From the NCBI GenBank assembly GCA_027038965.1, contig JALWFG010000005.1:186001-250000 (forward strand): a stretch of DNA of 64,000 nucleotides, given 5' to 3'. Of the stretch, positions 55,915-62,670 are shown in pieces. Within the stretch, counting starts at the first letter, position 1. Each line of letters begins with the position of its first letter. Position numbers and translations under genes: made by a program. The stretch is from Candidatus Desulfofervidaceae bacterium (GTDB lineage: Bacteria; Desulfobacterota; Desulfofervidia; Desulfofervidales; Desulfofervidaceae). The notes under the pieces were generated by a model. That model was given only the letters and a program-made list of their open reading frames with translations. It was not told the DNA's origin and did no database searches.

Positions 55915-57279
55915 ATGGCAGAGTTGAACTTGTGCCTTGAGAATCTCCCCTTCCCATGGTTGATCTTTAATGAAAACCGTGAGATAGTCAATTCCTCTTT
56001 CAACTATACAGAGGCTGAGCCTTGTTTTAAAACTCTTTTAAAACGCAAGCTTCCTTGTTTGGCCTGTCCTTTAATAACCAATAAACCCGTTGTGCATATT
56101 ATCTATTGGTTTAAAAAGCAATTTCTTATGCATTGTTTGCCTTCATTTTGGAAATCTCAAAAGGCCGTATTTGCATTCCTAGAGGAGGTAACCGAAACCA
56201 ACAAAATTAAACATTTAAAAGGCGCCTTGGAACTAGCCTTTCTGCATTTGCCTTTTTATTTAAGGCTGGTCAACCCTCAAAAAAGGGAAATTGTCTACGA
56301 GAATTCCAAACTTCAAGCCGATTTTGGAAATCATATTGGAAAAAAATGTTTCTCCTTCTGGCAACAGGGACCATGTATAAACTGTGTAGGAATGGAAGCC
56401 ATTATTCAAAAATCTCCTATCATAAAAACAGAAAAATCAGGAAATAGGTCATGGAAAATCAAGGCTATACCTATTATGAAAGAAGACGGCCACTTTGAAG
56501 TAATGGAAATTATCCAAGACATTACTTTTTGTGAAAAATTAAATCAGGAGGTAAAAGAACAAAATATATTGCTTTTAGAAAAGCTAGAGGAACAGGCTAA
56601 AAAACTGGCTGAAAGAAAACAGGTAGCGGCTTTAGGAGAAATGGCCGCTTCTTTAGCACATGAATTGAAAAACCCCTTGGGAGCTATTACTACAGCCATA
56701 AAGCTTCTTCAAAAACCTGACCGCAAGCCAGAAAAACAAACATTTATTTTAAATACAGTTAGCCTTGAAGTAAAAAGGTTAAATCAAATGTTAAACCATT
56801 TTCTTGCTTATGCCAGATTTAAACCGCCTAATAGACAAGAAGTTTCCCTGCCCCAAATTATAGATGAAGTTTATCAAATGATAAAAAATGCCCCTGAATT
56901 TAAACCAAATATTCATTTCAAGTTTTATATTCCTTCTAATCTACCCAAACTGAGGCTCGACCCTGAGCAGTGGAAACAGGTATTTTGGAATTTATATCTT
57001 AATTCCCTTGAATTCACTCAAGAAGGGAAAATCAGCACCAAGATTTGGACAGATAAAAAACACGTTTTTATAGAAATAATGGATACAGGCTCAGGAATTG
57101 CCCCTCAGGATTTGCCAAAGATATTTAAACCTTTTTTCTCAAAAAGAAGTCAAGGTTCTGGCTTAGGACTGGCTGTAGTAAAAAGGATTGTAGAATCGCA
57201 CCAAGGCCAGATTAGTGTTTTGAGTCAATCATATCAAGGGACTGTTTTTACCATAAAAATTCCTATTCAAAGACAATGA
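55915..57279 (+). CDS. cytoplasmic histidine kinase with cysteine-bearing PAS domains
   Basis: The 454-residue kinase has no membrane segment. The N-terminal region (1-95) contains KRKLPCLACPLI. A PAS-like domain (about 100-205) contains KKCFSFWQQGPCINC. The HisKA box is ASLAHELKNPLGAI, with N-box FWNLYLNSLEF, G1 DTGSGIAPQD and G2 SQGSGLGLAVVK. Its stop overlaps the start of the sigma-54 regulator by 4 bp. The Cys pairs could bind a metal or cluster or sense redox, which fits the surrounding stress genes. The start ATG has no clear Shine-Dalgarno. Confidence 0.9.
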   Translation: MAELNLCLENLPFPWLIFNENREIVNSSFNYTEAEPCFKTLLKRKLPCLACPLITNKPVVHIIYWFKKQFLMHCLPSFWKSQKAVFAFLEEVTETNKIKHLKGALELAFLHLPFYLRLVNPQKREIVYENSKLQADFGNHIGKKCFSFWQQGPCINCVGMEAIIQKSPIIKTEKSGNRSWKIKAIPIMKEDGHFEVMEIIQDITFCEKLNQEVKEQNILLLEKLEEQAKKLAERKQVAALGEMAASLAHELKNPLGAITTAIKLLQKPDRKPEKQTFILNTVSLEVKRLNQMLNHFLAYARFKPPNRQEVSLPQIIDEVYQMIKNAPEFKPNIHFKFYIPSNLPKLRLDPEQWKQVFWNLYLNSLEFTQEGKISTKIWTDKKHVFIEIMDTGSGIAPQDLPKIFKPFFSKRSQGSGLGLAVVKRIVESHQGQISVLSQSYQGTVFTIKIPIQRQ

Positions 57280-58607
57280 GTGAAATACTACTTGTAGATG
57301 ATGAAACCGCTTTTCGAAATATGACCGCCCTGTTGTTAAAGGACGCTGGTCATCGGGTTACTACAGCCAGTGATGCCCAAACAGCCCTTCAAATATTAGC
57401 CCAGAAGTCTTTTCCTTTAATGATTTTTGACCTCTGTTTGCCAGATAAAGATGGCTTGTTCTTGCTCCAAAAGGTCAGAGAAAGACATCTTCTGTCTGAA
57501 GTTTTGGTGCTTACAGGCCACGGCAGTATTGATACCGCTGTAAAGGCAATGAAAAAAGGTGCTTATGATTATCTTGTTAAACCAATAAACCCAGACAATT
57601 TCTTGGTAGTTGTTGAAAAGGCCTTAGAAAAATACCGGTTTAAATATGAGTTAAAAAGACTTAAGAATAGTTTTAAACAAAATATTATTGCCCGCAGCAC
57701 TTCAATGCGCCAAATTTTAAGCCTTATGGAACAGGTTGCCCCTACCAATGCGCCAGTATTGATCACTGGGGAAAGTGGCACAGGAAAAGAATTGATTGCT
57801 CAAGGTATTCATCAAGCAAGTCAAAGGAGAGATAAACCTTTTATAACTGTTAATTGTGCTGCTTTATCAAACACACTTTTAGAAAGTGAACTATTTGGTT
57901 ATGTCAAAGGTGCCTTCACTGGAGCCACAAAGGAAAAAAAGGGAATTTTTGAAGAAGCCAACCAAGGCACAGTCTTTTTGGATGAAATAGGAGAAACATC
58001 TCCCAATTTTCAAGTTAAGCTTTTAAGGGTTTTGCAACAGGGAGAAGTTAAACGGGTGGGAGATGCTGAAATAAGAAAGGTAAATGTACGTATTATTGCT
58101 GCCACCAATAAAGATTTGGATAAAGAAATTATCCAAGGTAACTTTAGGAAAGACCTTTATTATCGGTTGCAGGTAATTATGATTCATATTCCTCCTTTAA
58201 GGGAAAGAAAAGAGGATATTCTACCTTTAGCTCTACATTTTTTAGACAAGTATCAAAAGAAGTATCAAAAAAAACTAAAATTTCATCCTGACACGCTGGA
58301 TTTTTTAGAATCATATCCTTGGCCTGGCAATGTAAGAGAGCTAGAAAATGCGGTTGAAAGGGCGGTAATTGTGGCCAATGGTCCCCAAATCAATATTGAC
58401 GACCTTGGATTAAAAAGGACTGAAGGTAAGTTCAAAAAAGATAATAGTGTTCCCTCAATTTGTTCTTTAGCAGAAGTAGAAAAAAGACATATCCTTAATG
58501 TCCTTTCAGCAACAAAGGGTAATAAACGTCAAGCTGCAAGAATTCTGAAGATTGGATACAACACCCTTTGGCGTAAACTAAAAAAATATCAGATAGATAA
58601 AGCATAA
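57276..58607 (+). CDS. sigma-54-dependent NtrC-family response regulator
   Basis: The 443-residue protein has a receiver (about 3-118: ILLVDDET, Asp in LMIFDLCLPDKDG, LTGHGS, LVKPIN), an AAA+ domain with GESGTGKELIAQGIH, YVKGAFTGATKEKKG, GTVFLDEIGETSP, and a Fis-type HTH (ATKGNKRQAARILKIGYNT). It is translationally coupled to its kinase. Possible targets are the stress genes around it. No consensus sigma-54 site was found between 52623 and 62385, so the target may be glnA or elsewhere. Confidence 0.93.
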   Translation: MSEILLVDDETAFRNMTALLLKDAGHRVTTASDAQTALQILAQKSFPLMIFDLCLPDKDGLFLLQKVRERHLLSEVLVLTGHGSIDTAVKAMKKGAYDYLVKPINPDNFLVVVEKALEKYRFKYELKRLKNSFKQNIIARSTSMRQILSLMEQVAPTNAPVLITGESGTGKELIAQGIHQASQRRDKPFITVNCAALSNTLLESELFGYVKGAFTGATKEKKGIFEEANQGTVFLDEIGETSPNFQVKLLRVLQQGEVKRVGDAEIRKVNVRIIAATNKDLDKEIIQGNFRKDLYYRLQVIMIHIPPLRERKEDILPLALHFLDKYQKKYQKKLKFHPDTLDFLESYPWPGNVRELENAVERAVIVANGPQINIDDLGLKRTEGKFKKDNSVPSICSLAEVEKRHILNVLSATKGNKRQAARILKIGYNTLWRKLKKYQIDKA

Positions 58608-58622
58608 CTTCCATCTTTTTAG

Positions 58623-59525
58623 GTGCCTTCATATATTGGCTCGTTTTTTGCACAAAATTTTATCATGCTTCGTGTATTACTTGCCGATGACCATTATTCA
58701 AGTTGTATCTTGTTAAAGATGCTTTTAGAAGAAAACAACTATCAAGTAACAACTGTCCATGATGGCCAAGAAGTTCTTGATAAAATCGGCTATGAAAAAT
58801 TTGATATGTTTATTTTAGATTGGAAGATGGTCAATATAGATGGAGACATCGTTGCCAAAAAGTTATGGACAATAAAACCTGACCTTCCCATAATCCTTAT
58901 AAGTGCGCATGAAGTTCCCAATGAAATTGGGAAATTGCCTTTTGCAGCAATTTTATCTAAACCAATCGACATTAATATTTTATTGGCAACTTTAAATAAA
59001 ATCGCATCTAGGAGGAAAAATATGGTTACTAAAGAAGCTTTTAAAAAAGCAATAGAAATGGAAAAAGAAGGTAAAAACTTTTATCTCAAGGCCGCAGATC
59101 AGGCCCAGAATGAATTGGTTAAAAAGGTTTTTTCCCAACTTGCTAAAGAGGAGGAGTTACACATAAAAAAAATAGAAGAAATCTATAATCAGATTCAGAA
59201 AACAGGTTGTATCAACTGCTGGGTAACTAATATCACACCTAAACATACATTTAAAGAAATTTTTCGCACATCTCTCTTATCAGAAGCTTCTGGCTCCAAA
59301 CAGGAGATAGAAGCCCTTGAGTTTGCAGCCAAGAGAGAGGAAGAAAGTATCAATTATTATGAAAATCTGGCTAGCCAAACGGAAGATTCTAAAGAAAAAC
59401 GTTTTTTTATGGCTCTTTCTTATGAAGAAAGAGGGCATTTTTTGACTATATTGGATGCAATAGAATACCTGAAAGCCCCAGTAGACTGGATGAGGATGCA
59501 AGAAAAAAACATTCTTGAAGGTTAG
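58623..59525 (+). CDS. receiver domain fused to a diiron ferritin-like domain
   Basis: The 300-residue protein combines two modules. The receiver (about 15-130) is intact: LLADDH, phospho-acceptor in FILDWKM, ISAHE and LSKPID. The ferritin-like four-helix domain (about 135-300) has a complete diiron ligand set: EMEKEGKNFYLK, KEEELHIKKIEE, AAKREEESINYYE and YEERGHFLTI. There is no stop between them. An AGGAGG lies 5 bases before an in-frame ATG at 59022, so the ferritin part (168 residues) could also be made alone. The fusion starts at GTG 58623 or ATG 58665, neither with a good Shine-Dalgarno. It is 15 bp after the NtrC-type regulator. Confidence 0.88.
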   Translation: MPSYIGSFFAQNFIMLRVLLADDHYSSCILLKMLLEENNYQVTTVHDGQEVLDKIGYEKFDMFILDWKMVNIDGDIVAKKLWTIKPDLPIILISAHEVPNEIGKLPFAAILSKPIDINILLATLNKIASRRKNMVTKEAFKKAIEMEKEGKNFYLKAADQAQNELVKKVFSQLAKEEELHIKKIEEIYNQIQKTGCINCWVTNITPKHTFKEIFRTSLLSEASGSKQEIEALEFAAKREEESINYYENLASQTEDSKEKRFFMALSYEERGHFLTILDAIEYLKAPVDWMRMQEKNILEG

Positions 59526-59531
59526 AAAGCA

Positions 59532-59801
59532 ATGTCTCAGTTACACATAATTCACCATTTTGGAACTATCTGTTTCCACAATGGAAAAATGCTTAAAAAT
59601 GTGAGTAGAAGAATCTATCAACATTTTGCATCAAAGACAAACTTCTTGGATTGCATTATTATTGGCATATTTGTTGCTTTGATTTTAAGTTGCTTTGGAG
59701 AACAGGATAAAAGTTGCTACGTGGTTAGAAATTGCAAAAAGGACATCTCAAAGGCATCTCTTTGTCAAGTTGTCCAAAGTATATATTATTTCGGAGGATA
59801 A
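59532..59801 (+). CDS. possible small membrane protein, doubtful
   Basis: The 89-codon frame has an AAGG-type site 8-12 bases upstream and one hydrophobic segment (about 38-55, DCIIIGIFVALILSCF). The composition is otherwise unconvincing and no family is recognised. It fills most of the 279-bp gap before fprA, which otherwise shows nothing clear. Confidence 0.25.
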   Translation: MSQLHIIHHFGTICFHNGKMLKNVSRRIYQHFASKTNFLDCIIIGIFVALILSCFGEQDKSCYVVRNCKKDISKASLCQVVQSIYYFGG

Positions 59802-59804
59802 ACC

Positions 59805-60983
59805 ATGATTCAAAAGATTAAAAGCGGTATTTATTATATTAATATCAGGGACTGGGACAGACGTCTATTTGACGAGTTAATACCTCTACCAAATGGTACC
59901 AGTTACAATGCCTATGTCATAAAAGGCAGTGAAAAAACGGCCTTGATTGATACCTCTGACCCTGTTAAACGGGAAGAGTTTATAGAAAATCTCAAAAGTT
60001 TAAATTTATCTTTAGATTTTGTGATTTCTCAACATGCCGAACAAGATCACTCAGGTCTTCTCCCTGAAACCTTAAAATTGTTTCCTGAAGCCAAGTTGGT
60101 CACTAACAAAAAGTGTCAATCTTTTTTAAAGGAATTACTTTTAATCCCCGAAACTCGTTTTTGGATCATAGAAGACGGTCAGGAAATTTCTTTGGGTAAT
60201 AAGACACTCAAGTTTATCTTCACACCCTGGGCCCACTGGCCGGAGACATTCTGCACTTATTTAAGAGAAGATAAAATTCTTTTCAGTTGTGATCTTTTTG
60301 GCAGTCATTATGCCACATCCAAGGTCTTTGTTGAAGAAAATGAAATCTACCTCCCAGCCAAGCGGTATTATGCCGAAATTATGATGCCTTTTAGAAAAAC
60401 AATTATTAAAAATCTTGCCAAAATAGAATCACTTGATATCGGGATTATTGCCCCAAGTCATGGTCCCATTTATGCCAATCCCAAGTTTATTGTAAATGCT
60501 TACAAAAACTGGAGTTCTGAAGATGTTACAAACAAAGTAGTTATTCCTTATGTCTCTATGCACGGCAGCACCGAAAAGATGATTAATTTTTTCATTGAAC
60601 GCCTTATGGGAAAGGGCGTTGATGTAGAGCCATTTAATTTAAGTAAAACTGACTTAGGAGAACTGGCTATGTCCCTAGTGGACACCGCAACAATTGTATT
60701 AGGTGCCCCTATGGTCTTGGCAGGCCCCCATCCTTTAGCAGTGTATGCTGCTTATTTAGTAGGAATCTTAAAGCCCAAGGCCAAGTTTGCCTCAGTCATT
60801 GGTTCTTATGGATGGGGTGGAAGGCTGGTAGAAACATTAAAAGAGTTGATGTCTAGTTTTAAAGGGGAGTTTTTAGAACCTGTTCTGGCTAAAGGATATC
60901 CTAAAAAAGGAGATTACACTAATTTAGAAAAATTGGCCGAAGCGATAGCCCTGCGGCATAGAGAAATAAATATTTTAAAGTGA
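59805..60983 (+). CDS. fprA: A-type flavodiiron protein (FprA / rubredoxin:oxygen oxidoreductase)
   Basis: Reduces O2 to water or NO to N2O using rubredoxin electrons. The N-terminal metallo-beta-lactamase diiron domain has HAEQDHSG (His77, Glu79, Asp81, His82), a later WAHWPETFCTY (His), SCDLFGSH (Asp) and PSHGPIY (His). The C-terminal flavodoxin domain begins YVSMHGSTEKM and contains GSYGWGG for FMN. It is 392 residues, standard class A. A GGAGG site precedes it. Rubredoxin is encoded 4 kb upstream and desulfoferrodoxin 50 bp downstream. Confidence 0.95.
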   Translation: MIQKIKSGIYYINIRDWDRRLFDELIPLPNGTSYNAYVIKGSEKTALIDTSDPVKREEFIENLKSLNLSLDFVISQHAEQDHSGLLPETLKLFPEAKLVTNKKCQSFLKELLLIPETRFWIIEDGQEISLGNKTLKFIFTPWAHWPETFCTYLREDKILFSCDLFGSHYATSKVFVEENEIYLPAKRYYAEIMMPFRKTIIKNLAKIESLDIGIIAPSHGPIYANPKFIVNAYKNWSSEDVTNKVVIPYVSMHGSTEKMINFFIERLMGKGVDVEPFNLSKTDLGELAMSLVDTATIVLGAPMVLAGPHPLAVYAAYLVGILKPKAKFASVIGSYGWGGRLVETLKELMSSFKGEFLEPVLAKGYPKKGDYTNLEKLAEAIALRHREINILK

Positions 60984-61033: not shown

Positions 61034-61414
61034 ATGACAAAAAGGTTGCAGATTTACAAGTGTGGAGTTTGTGGCAACATTGTAGAGGTTTTACATGAAG
61101 GAGTGGGGGAACTGGTTTGTTGTGGTAAACCCATGAAACTCTATGAAGAAAATACCGTAGATGCCGCTAAAGAAAAGCATGTACCGATTATAGAAAAGGT
61201 CAGTAATGGTTACAAAGTCAAAGTAGGAAGCGTGGCCCATCCTATGGAATCCAAACATTATATTGAATGGATTGAACTTATTGCTGATGGAAAGGCATAC
61301 CGTCAGTTCTTAAAGCCCGGTGATGCACCAGAGGCCTTTTTCGCAGTAGAGGCCAACCAAATAACAGTGAGGGAATATTGCAATTTACACGGGTTGTGGA
61401 AGGCTGAAGGTTAA
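61034..61414 (+). CDS. dfx: desulfoferrodoxin (superoxide reductase)
   Basis: It reduces superoxide to peroxide without making O2, as suits an anaerobe. The two-centre class: centre I FeCys4 uses Cys10, Cys13, Cys29 and Cys30 (CGVCG, CCGKPM). Centre II uses His49, His69, His75, Cys116 and His119, with Glu47 and Lys48 in the EKH motif. It is 126 residues, full length. AAGGAGG precedes the ATG. Upstream is fprA; downstream is the peroxiredoxin that would remove the peroxide. Confidence 0.96.
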
Positions 61415-61485: not shown

Positions 61486-61705
61486 ATGATAAAAACACTT
61501 GAATTAAGGATTTCAGGCATGACTTGTGCCATGTGTGCTAGAGGTTACCAAAGCGATAGAAAGTATTCAAGGAACCAGTCAAGTCAAAGTTGACCTTAAT
61601 TCAGGCAAGGCGACATTCCATAAAACTGTTGAGGTAGATATTAACGACATCGTTAGGGCCATTGTTGAAGTAGGCTATCAAACTGACAGCATAAAAAGGT
61701 CTTGA
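61486..61705 (+). pseudogene. frameshifted heavy-metal-associated (HMA) domain protein
   Basis: Frame 1 gives the family start MIKTLELRISGMTCAMC with the GMTCxxC metal-binding motif, then breaks. Another frame continues VTKAIESIQGTSQVKVDL to DIVRAIVEVGYQTDS and a stop at 61703-61705. The total length, 220 nt, needs a one-base gain or two-base loss near 61540; comparison with the usual CxxCxxxV spacing favours a two-base loss. It could be a real lesion or a sequencing error. Intact it would be a copper-chaperone-like protein of about 72 residues. Confidence 0.75.
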
Positions 61706-61773: not shown

Positions 61774-62385
61774 ATGGGAGTAAGAGTAGGACAGCAGGCA
61801 CCAGACTTTGAGGCAATGGCTTTCGTAAGTGGCGGATTTAAGAAAGTGAAATTGTCAGATTACAAGGATAAATGGGTCGTTTTGTGTTTTTATCCAGCTG
61901 ATTTTACATTTGTATGACCCACTGAGATCACGGCAGTTGCCGTAAAATATGACGAAATTAAGAGCCTTGGAGCAGAAGTTTTGGCCATCAGTACCGATAC
62001 CCATTTTGTTCACAAAGTTTGGCAGGAAAATGAACTTTCTAAAATGGTAGAAGGAGGAGTGCCTTATCCGCTTGTTTCCGATGCCGGGGGGAAAATAGGC
62101 ACTTTATATGGAGTGTATGACGAACAAGCAGGCATTAATATACGGGGAAGGTTTATTATAGACCCTGATGGGATTATCCAAGCTATGGAAATTTTATCCC
62201 CTCCCGTAGGAAGGAATGTAGATGAACTCATCAGACAGCTTCAGGCCTATCAACATGTGCGTCAAACTGGGGGTAATGAAGTATGTCCCTCAGGATGGCG
62301 TCCTGGCAAAACTGTGCTTAAACCCGGACCAGATTTGGTCGGCAATGTTTGGAGGGTATGGAAACCTGCTGAGGCCTTCAAATAA
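61774..62385 (+). CDS. selenocysteine-containing 2-Cys peroxiredoxin (AhpC/Prx1 type)
   Basis: Starting at ATG 61774 (AAGGAGG upstream), the frame encodes [14 protein letters not shown], then FYPADFTFV, an in-frame TGA (61915-61917), [13 protein letters not shown], and continues to 62385. The TGA occupies the peroxidatic Cys position of the universal FVCPTE motif, residue 48, so it should be selenocysteine. The resolving Cys171 is present (NEVCPSGW). The total is 203 residues, normal for Prx1-type. A SECIS-like hairpin follows the TGA. Standard gene calling would report only a truncated frame from about 61981. Confidence 0.92.
61915..61943 (+). promoter_or_regulatory. UGA codon and bacterial SECIS-like stem-loop
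   Basis: After the UGA (61915-61917) and 12 spacer bases, ACGGC (61930-61934) pairs with GCCGT (61939-61943) around an AGTT loop. The short stem, the loop G followed by U, and about 17 nt from UGA to loop match what is known of bacterial SECIS elements. The arms lie within coding sequence. Confidence 0.75.
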
Positions 62386-62560: not shown

Positions 62561-62609
62561 TTTGTAGAGTGTATTTTGATAAAATGTTGAATTTTAGGAA
62601 AGATTCTCC

Positions 62610-62625
62610 TGGCATTTTTTTTGCA
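62610..62625 (+). promoter_or_regulatory. sigma-54 (-24/-12) promoter of glnA
   Basis: TGGCAT, five bases, TTGCA matches the RpoN consensus apart from T for C at the end of the -24 element. It is 45 bp before the glnA ATG. Confidence 0.8.
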
Positions 62626-62670
62626 GCGTAGCGTAAGGCTTAAAAATAAAAACAACAGAGGAGGTTGGCA

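Follow-up and report, generated by a model that had tools for sequence, protein, structure and literature searches.

The window analysed here is a 64,000-nucleotide stretch of contig JALWFG010000005.1 from a Candidatus Desulfofervidaceae bacterium, in which a sensor kinase and its neighbouring response regulator are followed on the forward strand by a receiver joined in frame to a diiron domain, and then by genes for an FprA-type flavodiiron protein and a desulfoferrodoxin. The features of the locus, in coordinates of the window, are as follows.

55915-57279 (+): sensor histidine kinase, HisKA and HATPase_c
57276-58607 (+): NtrC-type response regulator, with a receiver, a sigma-54 activator ATPase containing GAFTGA, and a Fis-type HTH
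58636-58652 (+): sigma-54 promoter TTGGCTCGTTTTTTGCA, a perfect match with its -12 C at 58651
58665-59021 (+): receiver domain with an ATG start lacking an upstream Shine-Dalgarno; D8/D9, D52, S79 and K99 present
59010-59015 (+): Shine-Dalgarno AGGAGG within the frame, with a spacing of six bases to ATG 59022
59022-59525 (+): diiron domain of rubrerythrin-like type (167 aa), beginning at a start codon of its own
59561-59587 (+): candidate enhancer TGGAACTATCTGTTTCCACAATGGAAA, three TGGAA half-sites
59573-59587 (+): perfect dyad TTTCCACAATGGAAA (TTTCCA/TGGAAA), part of the candidate enhancer
59662-59678 (+): second sigma-54 promoter TTGGCATATTTGTTGCT, perfect, with 116 nt from the predicted +1 near 59689 to the FprA start
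59805-60983 (+): FprA-type flavodiiron protein, ODP lactamase and flavodoxin
61034-61414 (+): desulfoferrodoxin

The frame at 58623-59525 (+) is uninterrupted and comprises 300 codons from its GTG to its end. Pfam places a Response_reg domain (REC, PF00072) at residues 18-124 (E 3.2e-17, above the cut-off) and a Rubrerythrin domain (PF02915) at residues 139-272 (E 2.1e-13, 51.3 bits against a cut-off of 22.8). When receiver residues are numbered from ATG 58665, D9, D52 and K99 are invariant across 11 aligned receivers (the window's own and ten others), and D8 and S79 are also present in the fused frame; the domain match is accordingly accompanied by the acidic pair, the phosphoacceptor Asp, the Ser/Thr and the Lys of a receiver. 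Counting from ATG 59022, the diiron half has its ligands E14, E44xxH47, E106 and E136xxH139 in place; of these, E14, H47 and E106 vary little or not at all across 25 aligned homologues. The above-cut-off match, the helical bundle, the two carboxylates and the two ExxH motifs identify this half as rubrerythrin-like. An earlier note on this DNA, which described one frame holding a complete receiver and a diiron domain with all four carboxylate/ExxH motifs, is therefore correct on both points. As Pfam matched no rubredoxin FeS4 domain at the C-terminus of the diiron protein, the domain is rubrerythrin-like and not a classical rubrerythrin. The likeness between this receiver and that of the neighbouring NtrC-type regulator is weak (28% identity), so the two need not share a kinase; an origin of the receiver as a recent duplicate of the NtrC receiver is unsupported at this identity.

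The ferritin-like domain is confidently modelled as a helical bundle (mean pLDDT 88.7, pTM 0.84), the best solved neighbours of which are uncharacterised rubrerythrin-like proteins. Foldseek gives weak E-values for them (best 7.3e-3, TM about 0.6), and a sequence search against solved structures gave weak matches to 2fzf and 1vjx (E 8.5e-5 and 3e-4), both of which also appear among the fold matches. In the model of the fused protein, a short linker leads from receiver helix 5 (103-118) to the first ferritin helix, which begins at 123; this model has a pTM of 0.60 and was built from an alignment without ferritin homologues, and its domain packing is unreliable.

Regarding the start of the fused frame, which the earlier note had set at 58623, ATG 58665 is the likelier codon because the perfect sigma-54 promoter sits between the two. 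GTG 58623 was rejected as a start: it lies upstream of this promoter, would be missing from the transcript made there, and adds no homology, the 14 extra residues falling outside the Pfam receiver match. The promoter pattern TTGGC-N7-TTGCW has 37 exact matches genome-wide against 1 for the reversed control, and rpoN is found in the genome; the fused gene thus has a suitably spaced promoter of this kind in a genome that carries both rpoN and an activator, as expected of a sigma-54-dependent gene. Taken 12 nt after the -12 C, the predicted +1 falls at about 58663, two bases before ATG 58665, so that the fused message should have almost no leader. No Shine-Dalgarno was seen before this ATG.

The second start signal lies at the domain junction. 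The earlier note had reported AGGAGG five bases before ATG 59022; the signal and the site stand, and the spacing is six bases. Within the 57 ORFs of at least 120 aa in the window there are 305 in-frame internal ATGs, of which 4 are preceded at 4-9 nt by AGGAGG. The other three, found between codons 21 and 34, probably mark the true starts of their over-extended ORFs. The homology of standalone relatives begins at the position that matches ATG 59022, and many standalone homologues carry a ribosome-binding site directly before the matching start, so that start and Shine-Dalgarno together are matched by the internal AGGAGG-ATG (e.g., ttaaggaggaaagcatATG in L046). The AGGAGG before ATG 59022 is not due to chance. 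RNA structure that would hide the internal Shine-Dalgarno was also considered and is unsupported, as the mRNA around it has no more predicted structure than shuffled sequence (z 0.68).

Downstream of the fused gene, the candidate enhancer TGGAACTATCTGTTTCCACAATGGAAA lies about 75-100 bases upstream of the second sigma-54 site. The perfect dyad within it is rare, occurring at 3 places genome-wide against 1 for the reversed control, and of the two promoters only that of FprA was found to have a copy, none being found before the receiver gene. A function of TGGAACTATCTGTTTCCACAATGGAAA as an enhancer for an NtrC-type activator is plausible; because the receiver gene has no such copy, this role is one that we infer. 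An 89-codon ORF at 59532-59801 was rejected as a probable non-gene, having no significant Pfam match and being overlapped by the sigma-54 promoter. Beyond the desulfoferrodoxin gene, three further observations were made. At 61510-61705 (+), between the desulfoferrodoxin and a peroxiredoxin, there is a heavy-metal-associated-domain-like sequence (ISGMTCAMC) that is apparently frame-broken. The peroxiredoxin frame at 61774-62385 (+) contains an in-frame TGA in FTFV*PTE, at the position of the expected peroxidatic cysteine, and the same in-frame TGA is present in the peroxiredoxin frame of L078 (4624-5328); the frame in the window probably encodes a selenocysteine peroxiredoxin. A sigma-54-like site, CTGGCATTTTTTTTGCA, at 62609-62625 (+), is located about 40 bases 5' of a glutamine synthetase start near 62665.

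The two sigma-54 promoters, which are absent from the earlier note, connect the NtrC-type regulator to the receiver-ferritin gene and to FprA-desulfoferrodoxin. Since perfect sigma-54 sites precede both, control of the locus through sigma-54 probably lies with the adjacent kinase/NtrC pair, and the NtrC neighbour would act at both promoters. In translation, the N-terminal half of the kinase shows two clusters of Cys residues with the pattern C-x(n)-PCxxC (EPCFKTLLKRKLPCLAC and KKCFSFWQQGPCINC), and no sensory family in Pfam matched this half; judging from the Cys clusters, the kinase is possibly a redox sensor.

The distribution of the fusion was examined by the domain-architecture search that the earlier note had proposed, and the fusion proved not to be conserved in relatives. 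Homologues of the ferritin-like domain occur in 188 of 395 genomes of the phylum (E 1e-10), and the 46 other ferritin-like ORFs retrieved all stand alone, with no receiver attached. A query with the fused protein found no fusion in 39 relatives or in 5 family members; among the 395 phylum genomes, both halves were covered by the window's own gene alone, so the architecture is confined to a single lineage within the phylum searched. No plasmid sequence covered 80% of the fused query, no fusion was found in viral contigs, and no relative was found to carry the receiver upstream as a gene of its own. In a genome of the same family (G002), the corresponding locus consists of a cytochrome, a ferritin-like gene, a ferredoxin-like frame, FprA (72% identical to that of the window) and desulfoferrodoxin, and it lacks a receiver, a neighbouring kinase/NtrC pair and an exact sigma-54 site. 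The syntenic ferritin-like gene there (L010, 1501-2010) shows two opposite one-base indels in A runs, which break and then restore its frame; this would be a sequencing error or a decayed gene. A same-genus genome has no ortholog and, as it also lacks an FprA ortholog at E 1e-30, is unusable as a before-and-after comparison. In several other genomes, the homologue clusters with FprA, desulfoferrodoxin, peroxiredoxin, rubrerythrin or a flavin reductase-like gene (names other than FprA and desulfoferrodoxin were recognised by eye), and this association supports an oxygen-defence role for the ferritin-like protein. The fusion is most likely specific to this lineage, with the ancestral start kept.

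The sequence itself shows both domains with their sites intact, a start signal inside the frame and the promoter motifs, and the searches show that the relatives covered lack the fusion. The reading that we somewhat favour is a sigma-54-run oxygen-defence locus with a lineage-specific join of receiver and diiron domain, giving a free diiron protein and a minor fusion. The kinase/NtrC pair would switch on two promoters, one before the receiver-ferritin gene and one before FprA-desulfoferrodoxin. An intact receiver would have come to sit in frame, with no intervening stop, upstream of an old standalone rubrerythrin-like gene that retained its ribosome-binding site and ATG. Translation from ATG 59022 would give the main product, the free diiron protein of 167 residues, and the nearly leaderless ATG 58665 would give, in smaller amount, a 286-residue receiver-diiron fusion that could be phosphorylated. 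The earlier proposal that the locus makes both a fused and a free protein agrees with the coincidence of the internal Shine-Dalgarno and ATG with standalone homologue starts; both products, like the leaderless and the internal start, are predictions, and translation could run from one start alone. We also infer the relative amounts of the two predicted products and any effect of phosphorylation, which may be to control the diiron domain allosterically or to provide a phosphate sink. The suggestion that a stop codon was lost between two ancestral genes is equally compatible with the evidence and is incorporated in the favoured reading.

A possible, though less probable, alternative is that the stop was lost recently between adjacent genes, so that only the free ferritin-like protein matters and the fusion is a rare by-product. 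The restriction of the fusion to one genome among those searched and the contrast between a receiver start without a Shine-Dalgarno and an internal start with a consensus one are as this alternative predicts, and since about five codons part receiver helix 5 from ATG 59022, one substitution would be enough. However, the receiver retains all its phosphorylation residues, implying that it is still under selection or that the event is very recent, and the separate upstream receiver gene that would represent the ancestral state was found in no relative. It is doubtful, although worth considering, that the gene represents a new kind of two-component output, yielding a free diiron protein for oxygen defence alongside a second form in which phosphorylation of the receiver determines activity, assembly or the choice of partner, the kinase thereby controlling both the genes (through NtrC and sigma-54) and the enzyme. 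The phosphorylation-controlled diiron sensor or peroxidase of the earlier note is no more than possible: the receiver site is intact, but the fusion was found in no other genome searched and its own start has no Shine-Dalgarno. More doubtful still is that the fusion is the main product and that receiver phosphorylation gates the diiron domain as an enzyme or sensor: intact receiver and diiron sites share one frame, the predicted linker is short and a kinase is adjacent, but the strong internal start would give diiron protein without a receiver, the fusion is not conserved, and the model offers no reliable domain packing. Finally, an assembly or sequencing error that masks a stop or frameshift between two ordinary genes is highly improbable: a TAA and a TAG do lie in another frame within AATAAAATCGCATCTAGG, just upstream of the junction, and the A-run indels of the G002 ortholog are such as sequencing errors would produce, but an error at the junction is unlikely because receiver helix 5 is read in frame right up to where it should end, which leaves the last few codons as the sole place for an indel, and the assembly has ratings of 100% completeness and 0.68% contamination.

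Under the favoured reading of a free diiron protein with a minor fusion, the locus may show how a response regulator gains a new output: the join is made in frame, the old product survives and the fusion is tried out. The diiron protein, FprA and desulfoferrodoxin are indicated to be under a kinase/NtrC/sigma-54 switch, which is directly testable. Should the fusion prove functional, it would add phosphorylation of a diiron protein to the known two-component outputs.

A literature search, with subscription journals mostly outside its coverage, found no receiver-rubrerythrin fusion, and the two surveys of two-component domains that were searched, among which the main output-domain census is not included, do not mention a ferritin, rubrerythrin or hemerythrin output. 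Receivers joined to metabolic enzymes have already been described (PMC5847659), and these resemble the present protein in pairing REC with a non-DNA-binding domain. The best solved matches by sequence and by fold, TM1526 (1vjx) and the proteins from Pyrococcus furiosus (2fzf) and Magnetospirillum (2oh3), are standalone COG1633/PF02915 proteins of the same fold class and family as the diiron domain; they are free proteins, whereas here a receiver precedes the diiron domain in frame. The fold search also matched Ava_4496 (PDB 3fse), likewise a two-domain protein with a ferritin-like domain, in which the partner is a DJ-1/PfpI-like domain instead of a receiver. An in-frame internal start in a two-component gene is known from enteric CheA, which yields a full and an N-terminally shortened protein; both forms of CheA have been observed, while the two products here are predicted. 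Sigma-54 regulation of flavodiiron genes is likewise known from NorR-norV and others, and in both cases a sigma-54 activator adjoins a flavodiiron gene. The NorR family matches the present regulator over the activator domain and C-terminus only; the activator here is of the receiver-bearing NtrC type with a partner kinase, and has no NorR N-terminal domain. The locus is made of known parts in a new domain combination, found in one genome.
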